NCBI GenBank assembly: GCA_027627225.1
Contig: JAPFQT010000369.1
Coordinates: 62,001-126,000, forward strand
DNA: 64,000 nt
Direction: 5' to 3'
Source of the DNA: Congeria kusceri
Lineage: Eukaryota; Mollusca; Bivalvia; Myida; Dreissenidae
The notes below the pieces were generated by a model. It did not search any database. It saw only the letters and a program-made list of their open reading frames with translations, and was not told the origin of the DNA. How positions within the stretch are numbered: position 1 is the stretch's first letter; every line of letters starts with the position of its first letter. This document shows, piece after piece, positions 1-34,185 of this stretch. The position numbers and the translations under genes are program-made.

Positions 1-74
1 CTTCAAATAAATGGTGTTGATTTATTTAGAGAGTATAGCATTGCACACCTGAAATATTTAGTATACTGTAACCT
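1..74 (+). repeat. 475 bp terminal module, right 74 bp only
   Basis: This is identical to 3791-3864, the last 74 bp of the next module, and ends in the right inverted repeat just before core 1. The rest lies left of the window. Confidence 0.95.
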
Positions 75-791
75 ATAAGAGAAATTTGTTCCCATTAAAA
101 TTAGTTTTTCTTGCATATAATTATCTTCCCATGCATATTGCACCAATATATTAAGTTTGGCTTGTATATCTGTCCATTTGGCCATTTTATTTCATATTTT
201 CAAACACAGGTGATTTTGGTCGGAAGCCGGTGATTTCAAGCGTCTTGAAGCTTAAATGTCCCTCTAACAATTAAAGCTGATATTTGCAATATTTGTGACA
301 AAATACCCAAACAAACCAAACAAACATGTATGGGGGGCTTATGTGGGGTGAGGAGAGAATGACTTTGTTAGATAGTTTTACTCTAAGCCATTTTGATAAT
401 GTATTTTTTGTGTATTTTTTTTAAAAAATCACCCCAAAAATGTAAATTTAATAGAAAAAAAATTCCAATTTCATCCAAGACAATTAACAAATTAGTCAAA
501 ATGGGAGATCAAAGATACTTTGAAGTGTAGAAATCAATCAGCTTCCAGTAATTGCTTGTTTCAAACCAATAAAGTGTAAAATCTTTAAAGCACCTTGTTT
601 GTCGCAGCCTCTTTAATTACAGGCCACCAATTATATATTCTAGTATATAATGTCATGAGTGCCTTTAAACTGCAGCAGGTGGTCAATTTGCATTGCCTGC
701 TCACATTTAGAGGTTTAAGGGAATACAAAATTGCATATTTTGGGCACAAAATAAGTACTTTGACTTTTTTTAAGGTGGCAATCTGGTCAAA
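75..791 (+). other. 5' non-coding part of core (unit 1; repeated in every core)
   Basis: 717 bp between the module and the first transposase codon. No convincing gene is visible. A pyrimidine-rich tract ending in AG at 774, shortly before the first ATG, could be a 3' splice site, so a 5' untranslated exon upstream is possible. A leftward 37-codon stretch (185 down to 75) with protein-like composition runs to the module edge, where the sequence AG/GTTACAG resembles a splice donor; this is weak. The region is AT-rich with T and A runs near 405-470. Confidence 0.4.
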
Positions 792-983
792 ATGGGGTTC
801 ATAACCAAGCAAAAGAAAAAGTTGCTCAATGTTGGTTTTAAACGAGGTGGGACTAGTCCGGTGAAGGGGAAAAAACATAATTATGAAACAAGGTCAAATT
901 CCAACACAACCTATGTAAGGTTAGAAAGGTCATCCTTTGAAGCACGGGTAGCTTACAATGACAAGGTTCTTTTCGGGATGTAG
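792..983 (+). CDS. Transposase N-terminal frame, unit 1
   Basis: 63 codons starting at an ATG in a good eukaryotic context (A at -3, G at +4). The peptide is basic (lysine-rich start, then an N-rich linker and a TYVRLERSSF segment), which fits the poorly conserved N-terminus of the Mutator-like transposase family. It stops with TAG at 981-983, and the main transposase frame opens 27 bp later in another frame. The main frame is open back to a TGA at 959-961, so the two frames overlap at 962-980. One protein would need a -1 shift there, or removal of a 41 nt GT-AG stretch (966-1006), which would join them in phase. The same frame break is present in all nine units (4582-4773, 8372-8563, 12162-12353, 15952-16143, 19267-19458, 23057-23248, 26847-27038, 31113-31304). 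Confidence 0.5.
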   Translation: MGFITKQKKKLLNVGFKRGGTSPVKGKKHNYETRSNSNTTYVRLERSSFEARVAYNDKVLFGM

Positions 984-1009
984 ACGGCTCTCAAACCCCA
1001 GCTAAGCCC

Positions 1010-2746
1010 TTGCGTCCGAGAGCGAACAAGATTCGCTATGTAGACCTGTTACGGGTTCCTGCTCCATCAAAAGTCCATCCCGACTTACTTACGAACAAGG
1101 TCTATGTCCCCGCCCTACTCCAGTCTATGATGTCCTCTGAAAATAGAAAGCATAGGTTAAGAAGTGATAAATGTAGGGGCGACTTGGTAATTGACGGCAG
1201 TGCTTCCATAAAGTGGGGCTTAGGCTGGGAGGAAAGGTTAAAATGTACAAGATGCAGATATGTAGGCAAGCATTATAAGCTTTACAATGAGGTTCCATCA
1301 AGTACCAGGGGCAGAAAGGCAGCTCAGATCAATGTAGGCTTCCAAATAGGTGTTGCAAGTACTTCTATTGGGAACACAGGTTCCCGCAGAATTCTCAACA
1401 CAACCAATATCATTGCTCCCTCTCCACTTGCTATGCAAAAACAAGCAAATAAGGTCAATACTGCCCTTAAATCCCTAAATGAGAGAAGCATGTACCAGAT
1501 TAGAGAAAACTTAGTTGCTGAAAATGCCAAAATTGGTCAAAAAGATCCCTCTAAGGTAAATGTTGAAGGGGACACTTGCTACAACAATCCAATTTTTAAC
1601 TCTGACGCGACACCCTTTCAAGCCGGAACTATTGCCATAAGCACTATGTGTGAAAACAATACCAGAAACAAGCAAATTGTAGGGGTACAAGTAGCAAATA
1701 AACTATGCAGGACTGCATCAATGCTTAGGAATAAGGGTAAACCTGTTCAGTGCCCCAATCATAGGGGGCATTGTTCTGCAAATGTTTCAGAGAGGGAACC
1801 AATAGGTGATGAAGGCAAATGGAATAGGTTGTTAGGTGACCAGATCTCTAAGGACATCAAAATAGCAAATTTCACTTGTGATGGGGACAGTAGGGCATTC
1901 CAAGGTGTTCGTAACTCTCATGGTCACAATGTGGGTCATCTTAAGGATCTGAGGCACCTAGGCAACTCGCTGAAGCGCGAGCTCAACAAAGCGCCTTTCT
2001 CAAAGGGCATGCTCAAGGGTCATTCCAAGTCTAATATCAGGAGTCGGTTCGCTCTCTCGGTCAAAGCTAGGTGTATGGCTGAGCTTAAAGCTGCCCACAA
2101 TAAACACCAGGGTGACATCAAGGTTCTAAAGAAGGTCATGGTTGATGTAATCGCAACCATTGTTCTATGCTTCAGTGGTTACTGCGGTACTCATTGTGCA
2201 AAGTACAGTTATGTCTGTGCTGGTACAAATAGGCAAGCTAAGAATTTCATGCCAGACAATGTCAAGGTTAAAATGGTTGACAGTGACCAACAAGTCCTTA
2301 AAAAATGCATTGAAATGGTTTTAGGTCCAGCTGCTCTTGACGCTACCAAACTTTTAACCACAACCCAAAAAAGTGAAGCAGTAAACAGGTCGTACCAAGC
2401 TGTCAATCCTAAAACTGTGACTTTCTCACGCAACTGTGTAGGTCGAATTCACGGGCAGGTTCACAAATTAAACAATGGCTATGCTGACTCTGTAATTGCA
2501 AAAACCACTGAACTAAATGCTAACCTTACCCAGGGGTCAAAGATTATTAAGCAGATAGCATATGAGGACCGCAACGACCTTAACCGAAAGCAAACATCCG
2601 CTACCAACAAAGCACGAGCTTTACGTGCCAGGACGCGGAATTATCGATACAAACTGCATGAGGAATTACACTACGGCAAGGGCATGAGTGACCCCAAACC
2701 TGATTATGACAGTCTTCCACACCTTAAGCATCATAAATATTCTTAG
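1010..2746 (+). CDS. Mutator-like DDE transposase, main frame, unit 1
   Basis: 578 codons counted from a TTG at 1010; a eukaryotic start is more likely in the upstream frame at 792. The protein would cut and rejoin element ends in the nucleus. A zinc-ligand-like set lies near residues 55-82 (C55, then CTRC at 79-82), followed by the GRKAAQINVG block (101-110). Candidate acidic catalytic residues are D188 (VEGDTCYNN), D291 or D293 (CDGDSRAFQG) and E456 (KSEAVNRSYQAVNPK); E358 is an alternative for the third. DLRHL at 313-317 and a Cys/His cluster at 387-403 could bind metal. The C-terminus is basic. An AATAAA lies 18 bp after the stop. It converges on the endonuclease gene 176 bp downstream. 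Unit 1 differs in its last residue (Ser against Ala in the other eight). The family call rests on remembered motif patterns, not a search. Confidence 0.75.
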   Translation: MRPRANKIRYVDLLRVPAPSKVHPDLLTNKVYVPALLQSMMSSENRKHRLRSDKCRGDLVIDGSASIKWGLGWEERLKCTRCRYVGKHYKLYNEVPSSTRGRKAAQINVGFQIGVASTSIGNTGSRRILNTTNIIAPSPLAMQKQANKVNTALKSLNERSMYQIRENLVAENAKIGQKDPSKVNVEGDTCYNNPIFNSDATPFQAGTIAISTMCENNTRNKQIVGVQVANKLCRTASMLRNKGKPVQCPNHRGHCSANVSEREPIGDEGKWNRLLGDQISKDIKIANFTCDGDSRAFQGVRNSHGHNVGHLKDLRHLGNSLKRELNKAPFSKGMLKGHSKSNIRSRFALSVKARCMAELKAAHNKHQGDIKVLKKVMVDVIATIVLCFSGYCGTHCAKYSYVCAGTNRQAKNFMPDNVKVKMVDSDQQVLKKCIEMVLGPAALDATKLLTTTQKSEAVNRSYQAVNPKTVTFSRNCVGRIHGQVHKLNNGYADSVIAKTTELNANLTQGSKIIKQIAYEDRNDLNRKQTSATNKARALRARTRNYRYKLHEELHYGKGMSDPKPDYDSLPHLKHHKYS

Positions 2747-2763
2747 TTGATTGTGTACCTGAT

Positions 2764-2769
2764 AATAAA
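2764..2769 (+). terminator. Poly(A) signal after the transposase gene
   Basis: AATAAA starts 18 bp after the transposase stop. The same signal occurs at 6554, 10344, 14134, 17924, 21239, 25029, 28819 and 33085 in the other units. It lies in the 176 bp gap between the convergent genes. Confidence 0.5.
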
Positions 2770-2922
2770 TTGTTATTATTACCTGTTTTGGCATAAGAGA
2801 CCTCTAACAAGTGGCCCTCGCGTCAGCATCAGGCGTTCCTCTACCTGAAAAAGGCAAAAATACCCAATAGAAATAGATATAAAATGAAAAAAAACATGCA
2901 TTTATGTATTTTAAGTGTATTT

Positions 2923-3345
2923 CTATGAATAAAAGGAAGTGATAAAGCTTGTTGTATTCATGTTTTTACCAAATATGCAGGCTGGCTCAGTTCCATGCCC
3001 GCTGCACTGTCCGAACTGTAAACATGTCCGCCGTTCCATGTTGGTGGAATGGGGCTCTATGTTTAAATGTTCAGGCTTAACACACAAGCTATTGTTGCAT
3101 AAGTGGCTCACAGAGTCCCTGGCGTTCAATTCTGACTTCATGTAGCGCATTAACGCTACACGGTGAACCAAGTATGTCTCTGATTTTATGTCCGAAGGCA
3201 ATTTAGCCCTCATTCGGCCATAATAGGGTAAGGAACTATTTGAAATACAACCATTCCAGATCAAACAATCTGAATTGATGCATTTAATGCACTTATTTTC
3301 TACTCTTTTGCTCAGAAATGACCAAAAATCTGCTTTCTCATCCAT
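2923..3345 (-). CDS. His-Me finger (His-Cys box) homing-endonuclease-like protein, unit 1
   Basis: 140 aa from the ATG at 3345 (the frame is open to the core edge, but the next upstream candidate start is only GTG). The layout matches the zinc-bound His-Me finger homing endonucleases typified by I-PpoI. There is CLIWNG at residues 27-32, a YGR at 42-44, an HR at 61-62, and the SHLCNNSLCVKPEHL box at 80-94, with H81 as the expected general base. Ligands C83, C88 and H93 pair with C27. The expected metal-binding Asn is N102. A second zinc set is C108, C114, H117 and C123. Spacing from C83 to C108 equals that of I-PpoI. All expected catalytic residues are kept, so activity as a double-strand DNA nuclease is plausible. 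Its 5' side faces the 475 bp module. Confidence 0.85.
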   Translation of the reverse strand: MDEKADFWSFLSKRVENKCIKCINSDCLIWNGCISNSSLPYYGRMRAKLPSDIKSETYLVHRVALMRYMKSELNARDSVSHLCNNSLCVKPEHLNIEPHSTNMERRTCLQFGQCSGHGTEPACIFGKNMNTTSFITSFYS

Positions 3346-3389
3346 ATTTTGCACTTGCAGACGATATTTTATTTTAACCCAAAGTCAGT

Positions 3390-3864
3390 TTAGGTCACAA
3401 TATACTAAAAGATTTCCTTAACAAATTCAATGTAAAAGCAATAAATTCAACAAAAAATAAACTCAACATTTTGCGCGTAGAGACCCTCATAACCATACCT
3501 TTTCTTAAAGAGCATTCCGAGCCGAATTGATTTAGACAATAAAAAAGATAGGTCATGTGATATGTAAGAAAGAACTCGACGCGAATCAAAGTTCACTGTT
3601 TTACGGCCATCTTTTTACCGGCTACTCTCCAGTTGAAGGTATACTGCCAACTGTCAAAGTCTCGTCATGTAGTCTCCAACCTTCAAGCGAAACAGTGAAT
3701 TTTTAGTACACAACAATGTTTTTCCTACCACACGTACAAAGAAATATTCAAAAATAAAGTCATGGCAAGTGACTATACAGAAAATTGTGTCTTCAAATAA
3801 ATGGTGTTGATTTATTTAGAGAGTATAGCATTGCACACCTGAAATATTTAGTATACTGTAACCT
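3390..3864 (+). repeat. 475 bp terminal module, copy 1 (reference)
   Basis: The left end 3392-3409 (AGGTCACAATATACTAAA) and the reverse complement of the right end 3847-3864 (AGGTTACAGTATACTAAA) match at 16 of 18 positions, both differences being transitions. No convincing gene lies inside; a 64-codon leftward frame at 3395-3589 is not recognisable. The module sits between the endonuclease gene on its left (read leftward) and the transposase gene on its right (read rightward), so it could supply promoters for both. Its exact loss and doubling elsewhere in the array define its ends to within one T. It may be a MITE caught in each unit or the terminal repeat of the whole element. Confidence 0.85.
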
Positions 3865-4799
3865 ATAAGAGAAATTTGTTCCCATTAAAATTAGTTTTTC
3901 TTGCATATAATTATCTTCCCATGCATATTGCACCAATATATTAAGTTTGGCTTGTATATCTGTCCATTTGGCCATTTTATTTCATATTTTCAAACACAGG
4001 TGATTTTGGTCGGAAGCCGGTGATTTCAAGCGTCTTGAAGCTTAAATGTCCCTCTAACAATTAAAGCTGATATTTGCAATATTTGTGACAAAATACCCAA
4101 ACAAACCAAACAAACATGTATGGGGGGCTTATGTGGGGTGAGGAGAGAATGACTTTGTTAGATAGTTTTACTCTAAGCCATTTTGATAATGTATTTTTTG
4201 TGTATTTTTTTTAAAAAATCACCCCAAAAATGTAAATTTAATAGAAAAAAAATTCCAATTTCATCCAAGACAATTAACAAATTAGTCAAAATGGGAGATC
4301 AAAGATACTTTGAAGTGTAGAAATCAATCAGCTTCCAGTAATTGCTTGTTTCAAACCAATAAAGTGTAAAATCTTTAAAGCACCTTGTTTGTCGCAGCCT
4401 CTTTAATTACAGGCCACCAATTATATATTCTAGTATATAATGTCATGAGTGCCTTTAAACTGCAGCAGGTGGTCAATTTGCATTGCCTGCTCACATTTAG
4501 AGGTTTAAGGGAATACAAAATTGCATATTTTGGGCACAAAATAAGTACTTTGACTTTTTTTAAGGTGGCAATCTGGTCAAAATGGGGTTCATAACCAAGC
4601 AAAAGAAAAAGTTGCTCAATGTTGGTTTTAAACGAGGTGGGACTAGTCCGGTGAAGGGGAAAAAACATAATTATGAAACAAGGTCAAATTCCAACACAAC
4701 CTATGTAAGGTTAGAAAGGTCATCCTTTGAAGCACGGGTAGCTTACAATGACAAGGTTCTTTTCGGGATGTAGACGGCTCTCAAACCCCAGCTAAGCCC

Positions 4800-6536
4800 T
4801 TGCGTCCGAGAGCGAACAAGATTCGCTATGTAGACCTGTTACGGGTTCCTGCTCCATCAAAAGTCCATCCCGACTTACTTACGAACAAGGTCTATGTCCC
4901 CGCCCTACTCCAGTCTATGATGTCCTCTGAAAATAGAAAGCATAGGTTAAGAAGTGATAAATGTAGGGGCGACTTGGTAATTGACGGCAGTGCTTCCATA
5001 AAGTGGGGCTTAGGCTGGGAGGAAAGGTTAAAATGTACAAGATGCAGATATGTAGGCAAGCATTATAAGCTTTACAATGAGGTTCCATCAAGTACCAGGG
5101 GCAGAAAGGCAGCTCAGATCAATGTAGGCTTCCAAATAGGTGTTGCAAGTACTTCTATTGGGAACACAGGTTCCCGCAGAATTCTCAACACAACCAATAT
5201 CATTGCTCCCTCTCCACTTGCTATGCAAAAACAAGCAAATAAGGTCAATACTGCCCTTAAATCCCTAAATGAGAGAAGCATGTACCAGATTAGAGAAAAC
5301 TTAGTTGCTGAAAATGCCAAAATTGGTCAAAAAGATCCCTCTAAGGTAAATGTTGAAGGGGACACTTGCTACAACAATCCAATTTTTAACTCTGACGCGA
5401 CACCCTTTCAAGCCGGAACTATTGCCATAAGCACTATGTGTGAAAACAATACCAGAAACAAGCAAATTGTAGGGGTACAAGTAGCAAATAAACTATGCAG
5501 GACTGCATCAATGCTTAGGAATAAGGGTAAACCTGTTCAGTGCCCCAATCATAGGGGGCATTGTTCTGCAAATGTTTCAGAGAGGGAACCAATAGGTGAT
5601 GAAGGCAAATGGAATAGGTTGTTAGGTGACCAGATCTCTAAGGACATCAAAATAGCAAATTTCACTTGTGATGGGGACAGTAGGGCATTCCAAGGTGTTC
5701 GTAACTCTCATGGTCACAATGTGGGTCATCTTAAGGATCTGAGGCACCTAGGCAACTCGCTGAAGCGCGAGCTCAACAAAGCGCCTTTCTCAAAGGGCAT
5801 GCTCAAGGGTCATTCCAAGTCTAATATCAGGAGTCGGTTCGCTCTCTCGGTCAAAGCTAGGTGTATGGCTGAGCTTAAAGCTGCCCACAATAAACACCAG
5901 GGTGACATCAAGGTTCTAAAGAAGGTCATGGTTGATGTAATCGCAACCATTGTTCTATGCTTCAGTGGTTACTGCGGTACTCATTGTGCAAAGTACAGTT
6001 ATGTCTGTGCTGGTACAAATAGGCAAGCTAAGAATTTCATGCCAGACAATGTCAAGGTTAAAATGGTTGACAGTGACCAACAAGTCCTTAAAAAATGCAT
6101 TGAAATGGTTTTAGGTCCAGCTGCTCTTGACGCTACCAAACTTTTAACCACAACCCAAAAAAGTGAAGCAGTAAACAGGTCGTACCAAGCTGTCAATCCT
6201 AAAACTGTGACTTTCTCACGCAACTGTGTAGGTCGAATTCACGGGCAGGTTCACAAATTAAACAATGGCTATGCTGACTCTGTAATTGCAAAAACCACTG
6301 AACTAAATGCTAACCTTACCCAGGGGTCAAAGATTATTAAGCAGATAGCATATGAGGACCGCAACGACCTTAACCGAAAGCAAACATCCGCTACCAACAA
6401 AGCACGAGCTTTACGTGCCAGGACGCGGAATTATCGATACAAACTGCATGAGGAATTACACTACGGCAAGGGCATGAGTGACCCCAAACCTGATTATGAC
6501 AGTCTTCCACACCTTAAGCATCATAAATATGCTTAG
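4800..6536 (+). CDS. Mutator-like DDE transposase, main frame, unit 2
   Basis: Same 578-codon frame as unit 1 but ending in Ala, the majority form. The N-terminal frame is at 4582-4773, with the same break between the two frames. Confidence 0.75.
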   Translation: MRPRANKIRYVDLLRVPAPSKVHPDLLTNKVYVPALLQSMMSSENRKHRLRSDKCRGDLVIDGSASIKWGLGWEERLKCTRCRYVGKHYKLYNEVPSSTRGRKAAQINVGFQIGVASTSIGNTGSRRILNTTNIIAPSPLAMQKQANKVNTALKSLNERSMYQIRENLVAENAKIGQKDPSKVNVEGDTCYNNPIFNSDATPFQAGTIAISTMCENNTRNKQIVGVQVANKLCRTASMLRNKGKPVQCPNHRGHCSANVSEREPIGDEGKWNRLLGDQISKDIKIANFTCDGDSRAFQGVRNSHGHNVGHLKDLRHLGNSLKRELNKAPFSKGMLKGHSKSNIRSRFALSVKARCMAELKAAHNKHQGDIKVLKKVMVDVIATIVLCFSGYCGTHCAKYSYVCAGTNRQAKNFMPDNVKVKMVDSDQQVLKKCIEMVLGPAALDATKLLTTTQKSEAVNRSYQAVNPKTVTFSRNCVGRIHGQVHKLNNGYADSVIAKTTELNANLTQGSKIIKQIAYEDRNDLNRKQTSATNKARALRARTRNYRYKLHEELHYGKGMSDPKPDYDSLPHLKHHKYA

Positions 6537-6712
6537 TTGATTGTGTACCTGATAATAAATTGTTATTATTACCTGTTTTGGCATAAGAGACCTCTAACAA
6601 GTGGCCCTCGCGTCAGCATCAGGCGTTCCTCTACCTGAAAAAGGCAAAAATACCCAATAGAAATAGATATAAAATGAAAAAAAACATGCATTTATGTATT
6701 TTAAGTGTATTT

Positions 6713-7135
6713 CTATGAATAAAAGGAAGTGATAAAGCTTGTTGTATTCATGTTTTTACCAAATATGCAGGCTGGCTCAGTTCCATGCCCGCTGCACTGT
6801 CCGAACTGTAAACATGTCCGCCGTTCCATGTTGGTGGAATGGGGCTCTATGTTTAAATGTTCAGGCTTAACACACAAGCTATTGTTGCATAAGTGGCTCA
6901 CAGAGTCCCTGGCGTTCAATTCTGACTTCATGTAGCGCATTAACGCTACACGGTGAACCAAGTATGTCTCTGATTTTATGTCCGAAGGCAATTTAGCCCT
7001 CATTCGGCCATAATAGGGTAAGGAACTATTTGAAATACAACCATTCCAGATCAAACAATCTGAATTGATGCATTTAATGCACTTATTTTCTACTCTTTTG
7101 CTCAGAAATGACCAAAAATCTGCTTTCTCATCCAT
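6713..7135 (-). CDS. His-Me finger endonuclease-like protein, unit 2
   Basis: Identical protein to unit 1, with the intact His-Cys box. The module upstream of it (7180-7654) carries the G to A variant at 7549. Confidence 0.85.
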   Translation of the reverse strand: MDEKADFWSFLSKRVENKCIKCINSDCLIWNGCISNSSLPYYGRMRAKLPSDIKSETYLVHRVALMRYMKSELNARDSVSHLCNNSLCVKPEHLNIEPHSTNMERRTCLQFGQCSGHGTEPACIFGKNMNTTSFITSFYS

Positions 7136-7179
7136 ATTTTGCACTTGCAGACGATATTTTATTTTAACCCAAAGTCAGT

Positions 7180-7654
7180 TTAGGTCACAATATACTAAAA
7201 GATTTCCTTAACAAATTCAATGTAAAAGCAATAAATTCAACAAAAAATAAACTCAACATTTTGCGCGTAGAGACCCTCATAACCATACCTTTTCTTAAAG
7301 AGCATTCCGAGCCGAATTGATTTAGACAATAAAAAAGATAGGTCATGTGATATGTAAGAAAGAACTCGACGCGAATCAAAGTTCACTGTTTTACGGCCAT
7401 CTTTTTACCGGCTACTCTCCAGTTGAAGGTATACTGCCAACTGTCAAAGTCTCGTCATGTAGTCTCCAACCTTCAAGCGAAACAGTGAATTTTTAGTACA
7501 CAACAATGTTTTTCCTACCACACGTACAAAGAAATATTCAAAAATAAAATCATGGCAAGTGACTATACAGAAAATTGTGTCTTCAAATAAATGGTGTTGA
7601 TTTATTTAGAGAGTATAGCATTGCACACCTGAAATATTTAGTATACTGTAACCT
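7180..7654 (+). repeat. 475 bp terminal module, copy 2
   Basis: Same as the reference module except for a G to A change at 7549. Confidence 0.9.
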
Positions 7655-8589
7655 ATAAGAGAAATTTGTTCCCATTAAAATTAGTTTTTCTTGCATATAA
7701 TTATCTTCCCATGCATATTGCACCAATATATTAAGTTTGGCTTGTATATCTGTCCATTTGGCCATTTTATTTCATATTTTCAAACACAGGTGATTTTGGT
7801 CGGAAGCCGGTGATTTCAAGCGTCTTGAAGCTTAAATGTCCCTCTAACAATTAAAGCTGATATTTGCAATATTTGTGACAAAATACCCAAACAAACCAAA
7901 CAAACATGTATGGGGGGCTTATGTGGGGTGAGGAGAGAATGACTTTGTTAGATAGTTTTACTCTAAGCCATTTTGATAATGTATTTTTTGTGTATTTTTT
8001 TTAAAAAATCACCCCAAAAATGTAAATTTAATAGAAAAAAAATTCCAATTTCATCCAAGACAATTAACAAATTAGTCAAAATGGGAGATCAAAGATACTT
8101 TGAAGTGTAGAAATCAATCAGCTTCCAGTAATTGCTTGTTTCAAACCAATAAAGTGTAAAATCTTTAAAGCACCTTGTTTGTCGCAGCCTCTTTAATTAC
8201 AGGCCACCAATTATATATTCTAGTATATAATGTCATGAGTGCCTTTAAACTGCAGCAGGTGGTCAATTTGCATTGCCTGCTCACATTTAGAGGTTTAAGG
8301 GAATACAAAATTGCATATTTTGGGCACAAAATAAGTACTTTGACTTTTTTTAAGGTGGCAATCTGGTCAAAATGGGGTTCATAACCAAGCAAAAGAAAAA
8401 GTTGCTCAATGTTGGTTTTAAACGAGGTGGGACTAGTCCGGTGAAGGGGAAAAAACATAATTATGAAACAAGGTCAAATTCCAACACAACCTATGTAAGG
8501 TTAGAAAGGTCATCCTTTGAAGCACGGGTAGCTTACAATGACAAGGTTCTTTTCGGGATGTAGACGGCTCTCAAACCCCAGCTAAGCCC

Positions 8590-10326
8590 TTGCGTCCGAG
8601 AGCGAACAAGATTCGCTATGTAGACCTGTTACGGGTTCCTGCTCCATCAAAAGTCCATCCCGACTTACTTACGAACAAGGTCTATGTCCCCGCCCTACTC
8701 CAGTCTATGATGTCCTCTGAAAATAGAAAGCATAGGTTAAGAAGTGATAAATGTAGGGGCGACTTGGTAATTGACGGCAGTGCTTCCATAAAGTGGGGCT
8801 TAGGCTGGGAGGAAAGGTTAAAATGTACAAGATGCAGATATGTAGGCAAGCATTATAAGCTTTACAATGAGGTTCCATCAAGTACCAGGGGCAGAAAGGC
8901 AGCTCAGATCAATGTAGGCTTCCAAATAGGTGTTGCAAGTACTTCTATTGGGAACACAGGTTCCCGCAGAATTCTCAACACAACCAATATCATTGCTCCC
9001 TCTCCACTTGCTATGCAAAAACAAGCAAATAAGGTCAATACTGCCCTTAAATCCCTAAATGAGAGAAGCATGTACCAGATTAGAGAAAACTTAGTTGCTG
9101 AAAATGCCAAAATTGGTCAAAAAGATCCCTCTAAGGTAAATGTTGAAGGGGACACTTGCTACAACAATCCAATTTTTAACTCTGACGCGACACCCTTTCA
9201 AGCCGGAACTATTGCCATAAGCACTATGTGTGAAAACAATACCAGAAACAAGCAAATTGTAGGGGTACAAGTAGCAAATAAACTATGCAGGACTGCATCA
9301 ATGCTTAGGAATAAGGGTAAACCTGTTCAGTGCCCCAATCATAGGGGGCATTGTTCTGCAAATGTTTCAGAGAGGGAACCAATAGGTGATGAAGGCAAAT
9401 GGAATAGGTTGTTAGGTGACCAGATCTCTAAGGACATCAAAATAGCAAATTTCACTTGTGATGGGGACAGTAGGGCATTCCAAGGTGTTCGTAACTCTCA
9501 TGGTCACAATGTGGGTCATCTTAAGGATCTGAGGCACCTAGGCAACTCGCTGAAGCGCGAGCTCAACAAAGCGCCTTTCTCAAAGGGCATGCTCAAGGGT
9601 CATTCCAAGTCTAATATCAGGAGTCGGTTCGCTCTCTCGGTCAAAGCTAGGTGTATGGCTGAGCTTAAAGCTGCCCACAATAAACACCAGGGTGACATCA
9701 AGGTTCTAAAGAAGGTCATGGTTGATGTAATCGCAACCATTGTTCTATGCTTCAGTGGTTACTGCGGTACTCATTGTGCAAAGTACAGTTATGTCTGTGC
9801 TGGTACAAATAGGCAAGCTAAGAATTTCATGCCAGACAATGTCAAGGTTAAAATGGTTGACAGTGACCAACAAGTCCTTAAAAAATGCATTGAAATGGTT
9901 TTAGGTCCAGCTGCTCTTGACGCTACCAAACTTTTAACCACAACCCAAAAAAGTGAAGCAGTAAACAGGTCGTACCAAGCTGTCAATCCTAAAACTGTGA
10001 CTTTCTCACGCAACTGTGTAGGTCGAATTCACGGGCAGGTTCACAAATTAAACAATGGCTATGCTGACTCTGTAATTGCAAAAACCACTGAACTAAATGC
10101 TAACCTTACCCAGGGGTCAAAGATTATTAAGCAGATAGCATATGAGGACCGCAACGACCTTAACCGAAAGCAAACATCCGCTACCAACAAAGCACGAGCT
10201 TTACGTGCCAGGACGCGGAATTATCGATACAAACTGCATGAGGAATTACACTACGGCAAGGGCATGAGTGACCCCAAACCTGATTATGACAGTCTTCCAC
10301 ACCTTAAGCATCATAAATATGCTTAG
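8590..10326 (+). CDS. Mutator-like DDE transposase, main frame, unit 3
   Basis: Identical to the unit 2 protein. The N-terminal frame is at 8372-8563. Confidence 0.75.
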   Translation: MRPRANKIRYVDLLRVPAPSKVHPDLLTNKVYVPALLQSMMSSENRKHRLRSDKCRGDLVIDGSASIKWGLGWEERLKCTRCRYVGKHYKLYNEVPSSTRGRKAAQINVGFQIGVASTSIGNTGSRRILNTTNIIAPSPLAMQKQANKVNTALKSLNERSMYQIRENLVAENAKIGQKDPSKVNVEGDTCYNNPIFNSDATPFQAGTIAISTMCENNTRNKQIVGVQVANKLCRTASMLRNKGKPVQCPNHRGHCSANVSEREPIGDEGKWNRLLGDQISKDIKIANFTCDGDSRAFQGVRNSHGHNVGHLKDLRHLGNSLKRELNKAPFSKGMLKGHSKSNIRSRFALSVKARCMAELKAAHNKHQGDIKVLKKVMVDVIATIVLCFSGYCGTHCAKYSYVCAGTNRQAKNFMPDNVKVKMVDSDQQVLKKCIEMVLGPAALDATKLLTTTQKSEAVNRSYQAVNPKTVTFSRNCVGRIHGQVHKLNNGYADSVIAKTTELNANLTQGSKIIKQIAYEDRNDLNRKQTSATNKARALRARTRNYRYKLHEELHYGKGMSDPKPDYDSLPHLKHHKYA

Positions 10327-10925: not shown

Positions 10926-10969
10926 ATTTTGCACTTGCAGACGATATTTTATTTTAACCCAAAGTCAGT

Positions 10970-18539: not shown

Positions 18540-18560
18540 CAAAGTCAGTATAAGAGAAAT
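18540..18560 (+). other. Module-free junction between cores 5 and 6
   Basis: The core right end (...AAAGTCAGT, to 18549) joins directly to the core left end (ATAAGAG..., from 18550). Elsewhere 475 bp lies between these two points. The cut coincides with the inverted-repeat ends to within the ambiguity of one T, as expected from clean excision or from a site never filled. Confidence 0.92.
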
Positions 18561-21820: not shown

Positions 21821-21864
21821 ATTTTGCACTTGCAGACGATATTTTATTTTAACCCAAAGTCAGT

Positions 21865-25187: not shown

Positions 25188-25610
25188 CTATGAATAAAAG
25201 GAAGTGATAAAGCTTGTTGTATTCATGTTTTTACCAAATATGCAGGCTGGCTCAGTTCCATGCCCGCTGCACTGTCCGAACTGTAAACATGTCCGCCGTT
25301 CCATGTTGGTGGAATGGGGCTCTATGTTTAAATGTTCAGGCTTAACACACAAGCTATTGTTGCATAAGTGGCTCACAGAGTCCCTGGCGTTCAATTCTGA
25401 CTTCATGTAGCGCATTAACGCTACACGGTGAACCAAGTATGTCTCTGATTTTATGTCCGAAGGCAATTTAGCCCTCATTCGGCCATAATAGGGTAAGGAA
25501 CTATTTGAAATACAACCATTCCAGATCAAACAATCTGAATTGATGCATTTAATGCACTTATTTTCTACTCTTTTGCTCAGAAATGACCAAAAATCTGCTT
25601 TCTCATCCAT
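25188..25610 (-). CDS. His-Me finger endonuclease-like protein, unit 7
   Basis: Identical protein to unit 1, in a standard unit. Confidence 0.85.
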   Translation of the reverse strand: MDEKADFWSFLSKRVENKCIKCINSDCLIWNGCISNSSLPYYGRMRAKLPSDIKSETYLVHRVALMRYMKSELNARDSVSHLCNNSLCVKPEHLNIEPHSTNMERRTCLQFGQCSGHGTEPACIFGKNMNTTSFITSFYS

Positions 25611-25654
25611 ATTTTGCACTTGCAGACGATATTTTATTTTAACCCAAAGTCAGT

Positions 25655-26129
25655 TTAGGTCACAATATACTAAAAGATTTCCTTAACAAATTCAATGTAA
25701 AAGCAATAAATTCAACAAAAAATAAACTCAACATTTTGCGCGTAGAGACCCTCATAACCATACCTTTTCTTAAAGAGCATTCCGAGCCGAATTGATTTAG
25801 ACAATAAAAAAGATAGGTCATGTGATATGTAAGAAAGAACTCGACGCGAATCAAAGTTCACTGTTTTACGGCCATCTTTTTACCGGCTACTCTCCAGTTG
25901 AAGGTATACTGCCAACTGTCAAAGTCTCGTCATGTAGTCTCCAACCTTCAAGCGAAACAGTGAATTTTTAGTACACAACAATGTTTTTCCTACCACACGT
26001 ACAAAGAAATATTCAAAAATAAAGTCATGGCAAGTGACTATACAGAAAATTGTGTCTTCAAATAAATGGTGTTGATTTATTTAGAGAGTATAGCATTGCA
26101 CACCTGAAATATTTAGTATACTGTAACCT
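25655..26129 (+). repeat. 475 bp terminal module, copy 6
   Basis: Matches the reference module, between cores 7 and 8. Confidence 0.9.
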
Positions 26130-27064
26130 ATAAGAGAAATTTGTTCCCATTAAAATTAGTTTTTCTTGCATATAATTATCTTCCCATGCATATTGCACCA
26201 ATATATTAAGTTTGGCTTGTATATCTGTCCATTTGGCCATTTTATTTCATATTTTCAAACACAGGTGATTTTGGTCGGAAGCCGGTGATTTCAAGCATCT
26301 TGAAGCTTAAATGTCCCTCTAACAATTAAAGCTGATATTTGCAATATTTGTGACAAAATACCCAAACAAACCAAACAAACATGTATGGGGGGCTTATGTG
26401 GGGTGAGGAGAGAATGACTTTGTTAGATAGTTTTACTCTAAGCCATTTTGATAATGTATTTTTTGTGTATTTTTTTTAAAAAATCACCCCAAAAATGTAA
26501 ATTTAATAGAAAAAAAATTCCAATTTCATCCAAGACAATTAACAAATTAGTCAAAATGGGAGATCAAAGATACTTTGAAGTGTAGAAATCAATCAGCTTC
26601 CAGTAATTGCTTGTTTCAAACCAATAAAGTGTAAAATCTTTAAAGCACCTTGTTTGTCGCAGCCTCTTTAATTACAGGCCACCAATTATATATTCTAGTA
26701 TATAATGTCATGAGTGCCTTTAAACTGCAGCAGGTGGTCAATTTGCATTGCCTGCTCACATTTAGAGGTTTAAGGGAATACAAAATTGCATATTTTGGGC
26801 ACAAAATAAGTACTTTGACTTTTTTTAAGGTGGCAATCTGGTCAAAATGGGGTTCATAACCAAGCAAAAGAAAAAGTTGCTCAATGTTGGTTTTAAACGA
26901 GGTGGGACTAGTCCGGTGAAGGGGAAAAAACATAATTATGAAACAAGGTCAAATTCCAACACAACCTATGTAAGGTTAGAAAGGTCATCCTTTGAAGCAC
27001 GGGTAGCTTACAATGACAAGGTTCTTTTCGGGATGTAGACGGCTCTCAAACCCCAGCTAAGCCC

Positions 27065-28801
27065 TTGCGTCCGAGAGCGAACAAGATTCGCTATGTAGAC
27101 CTGTTACGGGTTCCTGCTCCATCAAAAGTCCATCCCGACTTACTTACGAACAAGGTCTATGTCCCCGCCCTACTCCAGTCTATGATGTCCTCTGAAAATA
27201 GAAAGCATAGGTTAAGAAGTGATAAATGTAGGGGCGACTTGGTAATTGACGGCAGTGCTTCCATAAAGTGGGGCTTAGGCTGGGAGGAAAGGTTAAAATG
27301 TACAAGATGCAGATATGTAGGCAAGCATTATAAGCTTTACAATGAGGTTCCATCAAGTACCAGGGGCAGAAAGGCAGCTCAGATCAATGTAGGCTTCCAA
27401 ATAGGTGTTGCAAGTACTTCTATTGGGAACACAGGTTCCCGCAGAATTCTCAACACAACCAATATCATTGCTCCCTCTCCACTTGCTATGCAAAAACAAG
27501 CAAATAAGGTCAATACTGCCCTTAAATCCCTAAATGAGAGAAGCATGTACCAGATTAGAGAAAACTTAGTTGCTGAAAATGCCAAAATTGGTCAAAAAGA
27601 TCCCTCTAAGGTAAATGTTGAAGGGGACACTTGCTACAACAATCCAATTTTTAACTCTGACGCGACACCCTTTCAAGCCGGAACTATTGCCATAAGCACT
27701 ATGTGTGAAAACAATACCAGAAACAAGCAAATTGTAGGGGTACAAGTAGCAAATAAACTATGCAGGACTGCATCAATGCTTAGGAATAAGGGTAAACCTG
27801 TTCAGTGCCCCAATCATAGGGGGCATTGTTCTGCAAATGTTTCAGAGAGGGAACCAATAGGTGATGAAGGCAAATGGAATAGGTTGTTAGGTGACCAGAT
27901 CTCTAAGGACATCAAAATAGCAAATTTCACTTGTGATGGGGACAGTAGGGCATTCCAAGGTGTTCGTAACTCTCATGGTCACAATGTGGGTCATCTTAAG
28001 GATCTGAGGCACCTAGGCAACTCGCTGAAGCGCGAGCTCAACAAAGCGCCTTTCTCAAAGGGCATGCTCAAGGGTCATTCCAAGTCTAATATCAGGAGTC
28101 GGTTCGCTCTCTCGGTCAAAGCTAGGTGTATGGCTGAGCTTAAAGCTGCCCACAATAAACACCAGGGTGACATCAAGGTTCTAAAGAAGGTCATGGTTGA
28201 TGTAATCGCAACCATTGTTCTATGCTTCAGTGGTTACTGCGGTACTCATTGTGCAAAGTACAGTTATGTCTGTGCTGGTACAAATAGGCAAGCTAAGAAT
28301 TTCATGCCAGACAATGTCAAGGTTAAAATGGTTGACAGTGACCAACAAGTCCTTAAAAAATGCATTGAAATGGTTTTAGGTCCAGCTGCTCTTGACGCTA
28401 CCAAACTTTTAACCACAACCCAAAAAAGTGAAGCAGTAAACAGGTCGTACCAAGCTGTCAATCCTAAAACTGTGACTTTCTCACGCAACTGTGTAGGTCG
28501 AATTCACGGGCAGGTTCACAAATTAAACAATGGCTATGCTGACTCTGTAATTGCAAAAACCACTGAACTAAATGCTAACCTTACCCAGGGGTCAAAGATT
28601 ATTAAGCAGATAGCATATGAGGACCGCAACGACCTTAACCGAAAGCAAACATCCGCTACCAACAAAGCACGAGCTTTACGTGCCAGGACGCGGAATTATC
28701 GATACAAACTGCATGAGGAATTACACTACGGCAAGGGCATGAGTGACCCCAAACCTGATTATGACAGTCTTCCACACCTTAAGCATCATAAATATGCTTA
28801 G
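27065..28801 (+). CDS. Mutator-like DDE transposase, main frame, unit 8
   Basis: Identical to the unit 2 protein. The N-terminal frame is at 26847-27038. The non-coding leader has a G to A change at 26297. Confidence 0.75.
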   Translation: MRPRANKIRYVDLLRVPAPSKVHPDLLTNKVYVPALLQSMMSSENRKHRLRSDKCRGDLVIDGSASIKWGLGWEERLKCTRCRYVGKHYKLYNEVPSSTRGRKAAQINVGFQIGVASTSIGNTGSRRILNTTNIIAPSPLAMQKQANKVNTALKSLNERSMYQIRENLVAENAKIGQKDPSKVNVEGDTCYNNPIFNSDATPFQAGTIAISTMCENNTRNKQIVGVQVANKLCRTASMLRNKGKPVQCPNHRGHCSANVSEREPIGDEGKWNRLLGDQISKDIKIANFTCDGDSRAFQGVRNSHGHNVGHLKDLRHLGNSLKRELNKAPFSKGMLKGHSKSNIRSRFALSVKARCMAELKAAHNKHQGDIKVLKKVMVDVIATIVLCFSGYCGTHCAKYSYVCAGTNRQAKNFMPDNVKVKMVDSDQQVLKKCIEMVLGPAALDATKLLTTTQKSEAVNRSYQAVNPKTVTFSRNCVGRIHGQVHKLNNGYADSVIAKTTELNANLTQGSKIIKQIAYEDRNDLNRKQTSATNKARALRARTRNYRYKLHEELHYGKGMSDPKPDYDSLPHLKHHKYA

Positions 28802-28977
28802 TTGATTGTGTACCTGATAATAAATTGTTATTATTACCTGTTTTGGCATAAGAGACCTCTAACAAGTGGCCCTCGCGTCAGCATCAGGCGTTCCTCTACC
28901 TGAAAAAGGCAAAAATACCCAATAGAAATAGATATAAAATGAAAAAAAACATGCATTTATGTATTTTAAGTGTATTT

Positions 28978-29400
28978 CTATGAATAAAAGGAAGTGATAA
29001 AGCTTGTTGTATTCATGTTTTTACCAAATATGCAGGCTGGCTCAGTTCCATGCCCGCTGCACTGTCCGAACTGTAAACATGTCCGCCGTTCCATGTTGGT
29101 GGAATGGGGCTCTATGTTTAAATGTTCAGGCTTAACACACAAGCTATTGTTGCATAAGTGGCTCACAGAGTCCCTGGCGTTCAATTCTGACTTCATGTAG
29201 CGCATTAACGCTACACGGTGAACCAAGTATGTCTCTGATTTTATGTCCGAAGGCAATTTAGCCCTCATTCGGCCATAATAGGGTAAGGAACTATTTGAAA
29301 TACAACCATTCCAGATCAAACAATCTGAATTGATGCATTTAATGCACTTATTTTCTACTCTTTTGCTCAGAAATGACCAAAAATCTGCTTTCTCATCCAT
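28978..29400 (-). CDS. His-Me finger endonuclease-like protein, unit 8, beside two modules
   Basis: Identical protein to unit 1. Two tandem modules (29445-30395) lie on its 5' side. Confidence 0.85.
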   Translation of the reverse strand: MDEKADFWSFLSKRVENKCIKCINSDCLIWNGCISNSSLPYYGRMRAKLPSDIKSETYLVHRVALMRYMKSELNARDSVSHLCNNSLCVKPEHLNIEPHSTNMERRTCLQFGQCSGHGTEPACIFGKNMNTTSFITSFYS

Positions 29401-29444
29401 ATTTTGCACTTGCAGACGATATTTTATTTTAACCCAAAGTCAGT

Positions 29445-29919
29445 TTAGGTCACAATATACTAAAAGATTTCCTTAACAAATTCAATGTAAAAGCAATAAA
29501 TTCAACAAAAAATAAACTCAACATTTTGCGCGTAGAGACCCTCATAACCATACCTTTTCTTAAAGAGCATTCCGAGCCGAATTGATTTAGACAATAAAAA
29601 AGATAGGTCATGTGATATGTAAGAAAGAACTCGACGCGAATCAAAGTTCACTGTTTTACGGCCATCTTTTTACCGGCTACTCTCCAGTTGAAGGTATACT
29701 GCCAACTGTCAAAGTCTCGTCATGTAGTCTCCAACCTTCAAGCGAAACAGTGAATTTTTAGTACACAACAATGTTTTTCCTACCACACGTACAAAGAAAT
29801 ATTCAAAAATAAAGTCATGGCAAGTGACTATACAGAAAATTGTGTCTTCAAATAAATGGTGTTGATTTATTTAGAGAGTATAGCATTGCACACCTGAAAT
29901 ATTTAGTATACTGTAACCT
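29445..29919 (+). repeat. 475 bp terminal module, copy 7 (first of a tandem pair)
   Basis: Follows core 8. Its right end (...GTAACCT, 29919) is followed not by a core but by T plus the left end of another module. Confidence 0.92.
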
Positions 29920-30395
29920 TTTAGGTCACAATATACTAAAAGATTTCCTTAACAAATTCAATGTAAAAGCAATAAATTCAACAAAAAATAAACTCAACAT
30001 TTTGCGCGTAGAGACCCTCATAACCATACCTTTTCTTAAAGAGCATTCCGAGCCGAATTGATTTAGACAATAAAAAAGATAGGTCATGTGATATGTAAGA
30101 AAGAACTCGACGCGAATCAAAGTTCACTGTTTTACGGCCATCTTTTTACCGGCTACTCTCCAGTTGAAGGTATACTGCCAACTGTCAAAGTCTCGTCATG
30201 TAGTCTCCAACCTTCAAGCGAAACAGTGAATTTTTAGTACACAACAATGTTTTTCCTACCACACGTACAAAGAAATATTCAAAAATAAAGTCATGGCAAG
30301 TGACTATACAGAAAATTGTGTCTTCAAATAAATGGTGTTGATTTATTTAGAGAGTATAGCATTGCACACCTGAAATATTTAGTATACTGTAACCT
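29920..30395 (+). repeat. 475 bp terminal module, copy 8 (second of a tandem pair, plus one T)
   Basis: A complete second module, 476 bp counting the extra T at the joint, precedes core 9. The joint reads ACCT-TT-TAGG: the two inverted-repeat ends face each other a few bases apart, like a head-to-tail dimer or circle junction of an insertion element. Confidence 0.92.
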
Positions 30396-31330
30396 ATAAG
30401 AGAAATTTGTTCCCATTAAAATTAGTTTTTCTTGCATATAATTATCTTCCCATGCATATTGCACCAATATATTAAGTTTGGCTTGTATATCTGTCCATTT
30501 GGCCATTTTATTTCATATTTTCAAACACAGGTGATTTTGGTCGGAAGCCGGTGATTTCAAGCGTCTTGAAGCTTAAATGTCCCTCTAACAATTAAAGCTG
30601 ATATTTGCAATATTTGTGACAAAATACCCAAACAAACCAAACAAACATGTATGGGGGGCTTATGTGGGGTGAGGAGAGAATGACTTTGTTAGATAGTTTT
30701 ACTCTAAGCCATTTTGATAATGTATTTTTTGTGTATTTTTTTTAAAAAATCACCCCAAAAATGTAAATTTAATAGAAAAAAAATTCCAATTTCATCCAAG
30801 ACAATTAACAAATTAGTCAAAATGGGAGATCAAAGATACTTTGAAGTGTAGAAATCAATCAGCTTCCAGTAATTGCTTGTTTCAAACCAATAAAGTGTAA
30901 AATCTTTAAAGCACCTTGTTTGTCGCAGCCTCTTTAATTACAGGCCACCAATTATATATTCTAGTATATAATGTCATGAGTGCCTTTAAACTGCAGCAGG
31001 TGGTCAATTTGCATTGCCTGCTCACATTTAGAGGTTTAAGGGAATACAAAATTGCATATTTTGGGCACAAAATAAGTACTTTGACTTTTTTTAAGGTGGC
31101 AATCTGGTCAAAATGGGGTTCATAACCAAGCAAAAGAAAAAGTTGCTCAATGTTGGTTTTAAACGAGGTGGGACTAGTCCGGTGAAGGGGAAAAAACATA
31201 ATTATGAAACAAGGTCAAATTCCAACACAACCTATGTAAGGTTAGAAAGGTCATCCTTTGAAGCACGGGTAGCTTACAATGACAAGGTTCTTTTCGGGAT
31301 GTAGACGGCTCTCAAACCCCAGCTAAGCCC

Positions 31331-33067
31331 TTGCGTCCGAGAGCGAACAAGATTCGCTATGTAGACCTGTTACGGGTTCCTGCTCCATCAAAAGTCCATC
31401 CCGACTTACTTACGAACAAGGTCTATGTCCCCGCCCTACTCCAGTCTATGATGTCCTCTGAAAATAGAAAGCATAGGTTAAGAAGTGATAAATGTAGGGG
31501 CGACTTGGTAATTGACGGCAGTGCTTCCATAAAGTGGGGCTTAGGCTGGGAGGAAAGGTTAAAATGTACAAGATGCAGATATGTAGGCAAGCATTATAAG
31601 CTTTACAATGAGGTTCCATCAAGTACCAGGGGCAGAAAGGCAGCTCAGATCAATGTAGGCTTCCAAATAGGTGTTGCAAGTACTTCTATTGGGAACACAG
31701 GTTCCCGCAGAATTCTCAACACAACCAATATCATTGCTCCCTCTCCACTTGCTATGCAAAAACAAGCAAATAAGGTCAATACTGCCCTTAAATCCCTAAA
31801 TGAGAGAAGCATGTACCAGATTAGAGAAAACTTAGTTGCTGAAAATGCCAAAATTGGTCAAAAAGATCCCTCTAAGGTAAATGTTGAAGGGGACACTTGC
31901 TACAACAATCCAATTTTTAACTCTGACGCGACACCCTTTCAAGCCGGAACTATTGCCATAAGCACTATGTGTGAAAACAATACCAGAAACAAGCAAATTG
32001 TAGGGGTACAAGTAGCAAATAAACTATGCAGGACTGCATCAATGCTTAGGAATAAGGGTAAACCTGTTCAGTGCCCCAATCATAGGGGGCATTGTTCTGC
32101 AAATGTTTCAGAGAGGGAACCAATAGGTGATGAAGGCAAATGGAATAGGTTGTTAGGTGACCAGATCTCTAAGGACATCAAAATAGCAAATTTCACTTGT
32201 GATGGGGACAGTAGGGCATTCCAAGGTGTTCGTAACTCTCATGGTCACAATGTGGGTCATCTTAAGGATCTGAGGCACCTAGGCAACTCGCTGAAGCGCG
32301 AGCTCAACAAAGCGCCTTTCTCAAAGGGCATGCTCAAGGGTCATTCCAAGTCTAATATCAGGAGTCGGTTCGCTCTCTCGGTCAAAGCTAGGTGTATGGC
32401 TGAGCTTAAAGCTGCCCACAATAAACACCAGGGTGACATCAAGGTTCTAAAGAAGGTCATGGTTGATGTAATCGCAACCATTGTTCTATGCTTCAGTGGT
32501 TACTGCGGTACTCATTGTGCAAAGTACAGTTATGTCTGTGCTGGTACAAATAGGCAAGCTAAGAATTTCATGCCAGACAATGTCAAGGTTAAAATGGTTG
32601 ACAGTGACCAACAAGTCCTTAAAAAATGCATTGAAATGGTTTTAGGTCCAGCTGCTCTTGACGCTACCAAACTTTTAACCACAACCCAAAAAAGTGAAGC
32701 AGTAAACAGGTCGTACCAAGCTGTCAATCCTAAAACTGTGACTTTCTCACGCAACTGTGTAGGTCGAATTCACGGGCAGGTTCACAAATTAAACAATGGC
32801 TATGCTGACTCTGTAATTGCAAAAACCACTGAACTAAATGCTAACCTTACCCAGGGGTCAAAGATTATTAAGCAGATAGCATATGAGGACCGCAACGACC
32901 TTAACCGAAAGCAAACATCCGCTACCAACAAAGCACGAGCTTTACGTGCCAGGACGCGGAATTATCGATACAAACTGCATGAGGAATTACACTACGGCAA
33001 GGGCATGAGTGACCCCAAACCTGATTATGACAGTCTTCCACACCTTAAGCATCATAAATATGCTTAG
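31331..33067 (+). CDS. Mutator-like DDE transposase, main frame, unit 9 (array edge)
   Basis: Identical to the unit 2 protein. The N-terminal frame is at 31113-31304. It lies inside the candidate complete element at the right edge of the array. Confidence 0.75.
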   Translation: MRPRANKIRYVDLLRVPAPSKVHPDLLTNKVYVPALLQSMMSSENRKHRLRSDKCRGDLVIDGSASIKWGLGWEERLKCTRCRYVGKHYKLYNEVPSSTRGRKAAQINVGFQIGVASTSIGNTGSRRILNTTNIIAPSPLAMQKQANKVNTALKSLNERSMYQIRENLVAENAKIGQKDPSKVNVEGDTCYNNPIFNSDATPFQAGTIAISTMCENNTRNKQIVGVQVANKLCRTASMLRNKGKPVQCPNHRGHCSANVSEREPIGDEGKWNRLLGDQISKDIKIANFTCDGDSRAFQGVRNSHGHNVGHLKDLRHLGNSLKRELNKAPFSKGMLKGHSKSNIRSRFALSVKARCMAELKAAHNKHQGDIKVLKKVMVDVIATIVLCFSGYCGTHCAKYSYVCAGTNRQAKNFMPDNVKVKMVDSDQQVLKKCIEMVLGPAALDATKLLTTTQKSEAVNRSYQAVNPKTVTFSRNCVGRIHGQVHKLNNGYADSVIAKTTELNANLTQGSKIIKQIAYEDRNDLNRKQTSATNKARALRARTRNYRYKLHEELHYGKGMSDPKPDYDSLPHLKHHKYA

Positions 33068-33243
33068 TTGATTGTGTACCTGATAATAAATTGTTATTAT
33101 TACCTGTTTTGGCATAAGAGACCTCTAACAAGTGGCCCTCGCGTCAGCATCAGGCGTTCCTCTACCTGAAAAAGGCAAAAATACCCAATAGAAATAGATA
33201 TAAAATGAAAAAAAACATGCATTTATGTATTTTAAGTGTATTT

Positions 33244-33666
33244 CTATGAATAAAAGGAAGTGATAAAGCTTGTTGTATTCATGTTTTTACCAAATATGCA
33301 GGCTGGCTCAGTTCCATGCCCGCTGCACTGTCCGAACTGTAAACATGTCCGCCGTTCCATGTTGGTGGAATGGGGCTCTATGTTTAAATGTTCAGGCTTA
33401 ACACACAAGCTATTGTTGCATAAGTGGCTCACAGAGTCCCTGGCGTTCAATTCTGACTTCATGTAGCGCATTAACGCTACACGGTGAACCAAGTATGTCT
33501 CTGATTTTATGTCCGAAGGCAATTTAGCCCTCATTCGGCCATAATAGGGTAAGGAACTATTTGAAATACAACCATTCCAGATCAAACAATCTGAATTGAT
33601 GCATTTAATGCACTTATTTTCTACTCTTTTGCTCAGAAATGACCAAAAATCTGCTTTCTCATCCAT
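33244..33666 (-). CDS. His-Me finger endonuclease-like protein, unit 9 (array edge)
   Basis: Identical protein to unit 1. The edge module (33711-34185) is on its 5' side, followed by unique host DNA. Confidence 0.85.
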   Translation of the reverse strand: MDEKADFWSFLSKRVENKCIKCINSDCLIWNGCISNSSLPYYGRMRAKLPSDIKSETYLVHRVALMRYMKSELNARDSVSHLCNNSLCVKPEHLNIEPHSTNMERRTCLQFGQCSGHGTEPACIFGKNMNTTSFITSFYS

Positions 33667-33710
33667 ATTTTGCACTTGCAGACGATATTTTATTTTAACC
33701 CAAAGTCAGT

Positions 33711-34185
33711 TTAGGTCACAATATACTAAAAGATTTCCTTAACAAATTCAATGTAAAAGCAATAAATTCAACAAAAAATAAACTCAACATTTTGCGCGTA
33801 GAGACCCTCATAACCATACCTTTTCTTAAAGAGCATTCCGAGCCGAATTGATTTAGACAATAAAAAAGATAGGTCATGTGATATGTAAGAAAGAACTCGA
33901 CGCGAATCAAAGTTCACTGTTTTACGGCCATCTTTTTACCGGCTACTCTCCAGTTGAAGGTATACTGCCAACTGTCAAAGTCTCGTCATGTAGTCTCCAA
34001 CCTTCAAGCGAAACAGTGAATTTTTAGTACACAACAATGTTTTTCCTACCACACGTACAAAGAAATATTCAAAAATAAAGTCATGGCAAGTGACTATACA
34101 GAAAATTGTGTCTTCAAATAAATGGTGTTGATTTATTTAGAGAGTATAGCATTGCACACCTGAAATATTTAGTATACTGTAACCT
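33711..34185 (+). repeat. 475 bp terminal module, copy 9, at the array edge
   Basis: This is the last module. Homology to the array stops exactly at its right inverted repeat (34185), and unique AT-rich DNA follows. Confidence 0.92.

Follow-up and report, generated by a model that had tools for sequence, protein, structure and literature searches.

A tandem multimer of a probable KolobokP transposon with convergent transposase and His-Me nuclease genes in the bivalve Congeria kusceri

We analyzed a 64,000-nucleotide stretch of the Congeria kusceri genome (the window), which corresponds to C369:62001-126000, C369 being the 156-kb contig JAPFQT010000369.1 of the 1.549-Gb assembly GCA_027627225.1. 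Positions 1-34184 of the window hold nine near-identical head-to-tail units, each with a transposase gene on the + strand and a convergent His-Me nuclease gene on the − strand, and a self-comparison of the window gives pairwise identities of 99.9–100% between units. One unit is 3790 bp long and consists of a long terminal direct repeat (LTDR) of 471 bp and an internal region (INT) of 3319 bp, which carries both genes. As argued below, the element is very probably a KolobokP DNA transposon in its multimeric form, (LTDR-INT)n-LTDR, founded by transposition and grown locally by recombination. Its features, in window coordinates, are as follows.

1..34184, + strand: nine-unit part of the probable KolobokP multimer; the right copy of the target duplication, TTGT, lies at 34185-34188
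30395..33713, + strand: INT of the last unit, 3319 bp, TATAAG..TTTA
74-3392, 3864-7182, 7654-10972, 11444-14762, 15234-18548, 18549-21867, 22339-25657, 26129-29447, + strand: other INTs
33714..34184, + strand: rightmost LTDR and right end of the array, 471 bp, GGTCAC..GTAACC
1-73 (cut), 3393-3863, 7183-7653, 10973-11443, 14763-15233, 21868-22338, 25658-26128, 29448-29918, 29924-30394, + strand: other LTDRs
31114..33067, + strand: last-unit transposase gene, made up of an N-terminal frame (31114-31304) and a main frame (31283-33067, PF20700) with a frame break between them, as in all nine units
33247..33666, − strand: His-Me (I-PpoI-type) nuclease of the last unit, 140 amino acids (aa), intact, PF05551
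2926-3345, 6716-7135, 10506-10925, 14296-14715, 18086-18505, 21401-21820, 25191-25610, 28981-29400, − strand: nuclease in the other eight units
18545..18552, + strand: INT-INT junction, where an LTDR and four adjoining bases (TTTA) are missing
29919..29923, + strand: spacer of an LTDR-LTDR doublet, 5 nucleotides (nt), TTTTA

The gene frames recur every 3790 bp except for one step of 3315 bp and one of 4266 bp, and these two odd steps reveal how a unit is built from LTDR and INT: an LTDR is absent at 18549 and doubled at 29448-30394. The nine INTs vary at three columns and by one 2-bp gap, and the nine full LTDRs vary at one column. Each LTDR has inverted ends of its own, GGTCACAATATACTAAA and GGTTACAGTATACTAAA, which are alike at 15 of 17 positions. 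We first set the LTDR limits at 473 bp (AGGT..ACCT) and then moved them, with the INT limits, 1 bp inwards on each side, because 4-bp target duplications fix the ends at GGT and ACC; with these ends, the 2-bp gap among the INTs becomes a 4-bp loss. The duplications come from 15 end pairs. Of these, three had no tip where one was expected, and two (one matching, one not) were dropped because INT formed their left flank. All ten usable outer pairs have identical 4-bp flanks: TATA, TTCA, TTGA, TTTA, TACA, TCAA, TTAA and TTTA around eight single copies, ATAA around one 8-unit array, and TTGT around the array studied here.

The nine transposase frames of 578 aa are identical, except that the first unit differs at a single residue. 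The last of them matches PF20700 (E = 8.4e-43; 147 bits, cut-off 26.5), and the nearest named transposases are those of Dreissena polymorpha, at 87–89%. When the window transposase is aligned with 75 of 99 homologues (those of at least 550 aa), D188, D291 and H316 (in DLRH) are present in all 76 rows and E456 in 75, as are the putative zinc ligands C233 (76/76), C248 (70/76), H251 (69/76) and C255 (76/76), together with C387, C396 and C403 (76/76 each). The catalytic and zinc-binding roles of these residues are presumed from the published description of KolobokP (Kojima & Bao 2022, Mob DNA 13:24, PMC9587614).

The nuclease is present in the window as nine exact, intact copies, and that of the last unit matches PF05551 (E = 1.1e-10; 42 bits, cut-off 27). 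It bears the motif S-H-x-C-x4-C-x4-H-x3-E-x4-N-x5-C, spaced as in residues 97-125 of I-PpoI, the Physarum group I intron homing endonuclease. Kojima and Bao name I-PpoI residues S97, H98, H110, E114 and N119 (PMC9587614). The direct match to the solved I-PpoI sequence is weak (E about 1), so the link to that enzyme rests on the shared family and the motif spacing. Unlike I-PpoI, the nuclease lies here within a DNA transposon; at the gathering threshold the window gave no Rfam match, to a group I intron or to anything else, and on that ground we rejected a group I intron homing endonuclease. The nearest nuclease proteins are one from D. polymorpha (72%) and one unnamed ENA protein (78%). Profile widening gave no further homologues (the 65 candidates yielded two, both known before), and a structure prediction from three sequences was unusable (predicted local distance difference test score, pLDDT, 31.5). 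Distant relatives with 32% identity occur at three loci on putative viral contigs in IMG/VR (L001-L003).

KolobokP elements are DDE transposons of the Kolobok superfamily in which an internal region between two LTDRs, each with its own inverted ends, encodes a transposase together with an I-PpoI-like His-Me nuclease in convergent orientation (PMC9587614). They are described from seven animal phyla and are abundant in bivalves, Dreissena rostriformis and D. polymorpha among them; multimers of the form (LTDR-INT)n-LTDR are common, and INT-INT junctions show small losses (PMC9587614). The architecture, gene pair, inverted ends, target duplications and array structure observed here agree with that description. 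The PF20700 transposase has the Kolobok signature (D, D, C/DxxH and E, with zinc-finger residues), and the PF05551 nuclease lies downstream on the complementary strand in 9/9 window units. The LTDRs of 471 bp, which also bound single copies with both tips, fit a published length of about 450 or 660 bp; their ends follow 5'-RR..YY-3', the 4-bp target duplications fall within the 3–5 bp given for KolobokP, and both multimers and INT-INT junctions with small losses are present. The initial annotation of the window had called the transposase Mutator-like, which stands as a Pfam label only; the superfamily indicated is Kolobok. Its description of an intact, convergent nuclease in each of at least nine near-identical head-to-tail units is confirmed, and the pair is no accident of one locus: the two genes lie convergently on opposite strands in 10/10 other arrays sampled, the nuclease of one of these having a stop. 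The same annotation had presented the pairing as an unusual novelty, and here it was mistaken, since element type, gene pairing and arrays have all been known since 2022 (PMC9587614).

Some features nevertheless go beyond the main text of that publication, which appears to name no array as long as the one described here (at least 32 units), does not use the term LTDR-LTDR doublet, and names LTDR-less INT runs of four, shorter than those in this genome (PMC9587614). A further difference is that every unit of the array that was tested has a frameshifted transposase. Bacterial composite transposons and IS3-type copy-out elements, with which Kojima and Bao compare KolobokP, likewise have independently mobile ends and long direct repeats around a core (PMC9587614). 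In contrast to those elements, the transposase and nuclease are found here in the core and not in the end repeats.

Other classes of element were considered and rejected. A long terminal repeat (LTR) retrotransposon or terminal-repeat retrotransposon in miniature (TRIM) is at odds with the inverted ends, and the units have no further frame of at least 150 aa. MuDR and Mutator elements proper generate target duplications of 9–11 bp, compared with 4 bp here.

The array is larger than the window. It continues leftward to the first base of C369, which holds 26 INT copies (the first truncated where the contig begins, and two, in C369:2201-12000, known from nuclease hits alone). The interval C369:12001-126000 contains 23 INT right ends, nine of them in the window, as well as 22 exact copies of the nuclease and a further INT-INT junction at C369:46911. 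The start of contig C66 likewise lies within an array, which is oppositely oriented and has six nuclease-bearing units and unit lengths of 3788–3790 bp. The outer end of this array abuts TTGT, matching the 4 bp found to the right of the window array, and 3/3 of its tested units share the transposase frameshift of the window units. From the common frameshift and flank, C66 and C369 are most likely the two ends of one array, its middle unseen, that comprises a minimum of 32 units, or about 122 kb.

Several points weigh against our reading of the locus as a locally grown KolobokP multimer. The assignment was made by matching features to a published description rather than by a tree with reference sequences, and the element is known here from DNA sequence alone. 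The two halves of the array sit on separate contigs with an unseen gap between them, such that their unity is itself deduced. Contigs composed largely of array could contain assembly errors, and one unit (C369:43597-46911), which has many 1-bp insertions and a 13-base loss in INT, looks like poor local assembly. That unit, the split of the array between C66 and C369, and the several arrays that fill short contigs or sit at contig ends would all be expected if the arrays were assembly artefacts. However, arrays are also found inside chromosome-size contigs, with differing unit lengths, and one has the same 4-bp flank at both ends, making such an explanation very improbable.

The frameshift provides a marker of how this array was made. 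Compared with a 652-aa homologue (P0003), the window transposase is broken near codon 60. The short, frameshifted allele is found in 22/22 testable units of C369:12001-126000 and, with those of C66, in 25/25 array units, compared with 0/58 copies from elsewhere in the genome, many of those 58 from the same few arrays; the first 100 listed places of a genome-wide INT pattern all carry the common, unshifted allele, and the confinement of the frameshift to this array rests on these two samples. This distribution supports local growth: the founder of the array, or an early unit, lost the transposase frame, and the loss was then copied through the array. With the frame broken in all tested units, these units do not supply full-length enzyme. 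It is possible that transposase from other genomic copies acts in trans. Full-length open copies do exist elsewhere, as 68/68 scored matches cover residues 1-652 in a 658-aa frame with no stops, although these are the best scored of 7779 candidates in a search that favors the best, and the proportion of broken copies cannot be deduced from them.

Genome-wide counts from pattern searches place this array within a large family. There are at least 2,517 INT copies (1126 + 1391; exact-flank pattern, flexible around the transposase frameshift site). On contig C1, for which all places were listed (units whose pattern site has mutated escape the count), 81 copies form 30 clusters, 24 of them single and six multimeric (2 to 23 members). 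Beside the common unit length of 3794 bp, certain arrays show one peculiar to them (3752, 3776 or 3790 bp), and these array-specific lengths, together with the single 4-bp duplication around a whole array, point to growth in place from one insertion. Other arrays mix runs of about 3794 bp, with LTDR, and about 3320 bp, without it. In two arrays, C505 and C550, most steps are 3320 bp, with INT following INT directly, and thus LTDRs are not required for array growth.

LTDRs are lost and doubled at many places in the genome. The INT-INT pattern occurs 556 times (216 + 340). By hand count of 100 listed junctions, 4 bp are lost in 61, 3 bp in five, 2 bp in 30, 1 bp in one and none in three, and all of these losses could have come solely from TTTA, the left flank. 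Within an array, junctions of one type occur in runs, suggesting that excisions were few and were then multiplied. LTDR-spacer-LTDR doublets, which may be new because the term is absent from the main text of the KolobokP publication (PMC9587614), number 50 (29 + 21; 0–12 nt permitted between AACCT and AGGT ends). One 14-nt spacer accounts for 40 of the 50, mostly in arrays with a period of about 4280 bp; the spacer is exactly TTTA in three (C5, C19 and C59), TTTTA in the window and longer in the other six.

These doublets bear on the idea that arrays arise by rolling-circle replication or re-insertion of circular LTDR-INT units. Doublets with a 4-nt TTTA spacer resemble joined circle ends, and the same 4 nt are often missing at INT-INT junctions. 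Insertion of an LTDR beside another LTDR, with a 4-bp TTTA duplication, would yield the same product, however, and the two origins are indistinguishable here; moreover, the window doublet has a 5-nt spacer and most others share the 14-nt one. We consider a circular route unlikely.

Arrays built as LTDR-14 nt-LTDR-INT, with the period of about 4280 bp, are found at L016-L024 and L028-L038 (C93, C319, C869 and C882) and, as coordinates only, on C925, and a third LTDR is added in places, with steps of about 485 bp. Three doublets lack an INT in the roughly 1 kb to their left and right (L010, C5:59119765; L011, C10:7369708; L025, C332:125093), and those on C10 and C332 have the same right flank, perhaps marking a duplicated or allelic region.

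Both halves of the preferred account, an insertion founded by transposition and array growth by recombination between units, are well supported. In the scheme we envisage, transposase acting on LTDR ends would place a single LTDR-INT-LTDR copy, which would then grow on the spot by recombination between repeats, the LTDRs serving first and whole units later. The same recombination would spread array-specific mutations along the array. Separately, transposase may remove single LTDRs, leaving INT-INT junctions with 0–4 bp lost, which would then be multiplied during array growth. Finally, the nuclease may provide the breaks that initiate recombination, as proposed by Kojima and Bao, who themselves term their proposal speculative (PMC9587614).

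That proposal, called "induced unequal crossover", holds that the nuclease cuts in the LTDR or unit and that repair from a misaligned sister adds units. The intact nuclease in 9/9 window units would be expected on this model, as would the long arrays built by INT alone, which bears the nuclease gene. The coding state of one unit from each of ten other arrays, together with the window, appears to point the same way: the nuclease is open in 10/11 arrays (the exception, L095, contains a stop and lacks a match to the first three residues), whereas the transposase is open in four, open with an 18-bp in-frame gap in one, and disrupted by frame changes or stops in six, two of which (L095 and L097) share one deletion. 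The transposase is 4.6 times longer than the nuclease, however, and if the transposase has suffered some 6–9 disabling changes, as we estimate, the nuclease should have taken about one or two; one array shows such a hit. The nuclease is therefore not kept intact better than its length predicts in these 11 arrays. Nor does pN/pS, the ratio of nonsynonymous to synonymous polymorphism, give any sign of constraint on the nuclease after insertion: it is 2.4 among ten nuclease copies (ten variable sites; the broken L095 copy left out) and 1.46 in the seven copies common to the transposase set, compared with 0.73 for the transposase (five copies) and 0.81 for its C-terminal part (eight copies), there being too little variation for either gene to show constraint. 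The unit has no I-PpoI-like site beyond chance (120/200 shuffles were as good, with a 15-mer as query), and the INT-only arrays argue against a requirement for cutting inside LTDRs. We regard nuclease-driven growth as possible, with the balance tilting against it.

Plain satellite-like unequal exchange through host repair, in which the nuclease plays no part, would account for the arrays equally well. The INT-only and LTDR-doublet arrays, which also occur, and the lack of constraint on the nuclease within the family are in keeping with it. By contrast, multimers are reported to be common in KolobokP (PMC9587614), presumably more so than expected of a 4-kb DNA transposon without some added cause. 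We hold plain exchange to be a real possibility, if somewhat short of an even chance. Either way, the division of labor in the initial annotation, in which a nuclease cutting at empty or incomplete sites drives copying by repair while the transposase handles end cutting, finds no support here: the transposase is frameshifted in all tested units of the array, LTDR-less arrays grew, and the nuclease is retained only to the extent its length would predict.

More broadly, KolobokP in this genome could be a self-expanding megasatellite, growing independently of its own transposase and even of its LTDRs, given that frameshifted or INT-only units form some long arrays and that the nuclease is open in 10/11 arrays versus 5/11 for the transposase. 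The nuclease could then act on abutted ends (ACC-NNNN-GGT), its presumed 4-nt stagger matching the 4-nt duplication, with doublets and circles as substrate. We advance this as a distinctly improbable conjecture. If true, nuclease-driven growth would constitute a drive-like route from a DNA transposon to satellite DNA. The main value of the find is as a rich example for examining array growth, not as a new element: one genome with single copies and LTDR-bearing, LTDR-less and LTDR-doublet arrays offers natural material for testing the 2022 proposal.

To the right of the array, the window contains other repeats. A 69-bp tandem repeat at 37919-39574 has 24 copies with 95% matches; its period is a multiple of three, which leaves three long overlapping frames open (two on the + strand, one on the −), and the Pfam matches of two of these frames resemble repeat artefacts. 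Short arrays with periods of about 130–167 bp lie at 48145-48438, 49392-49736, 53533-53785 and 59805-61071, with AGGTCA-type motifs in some of their consensus units.

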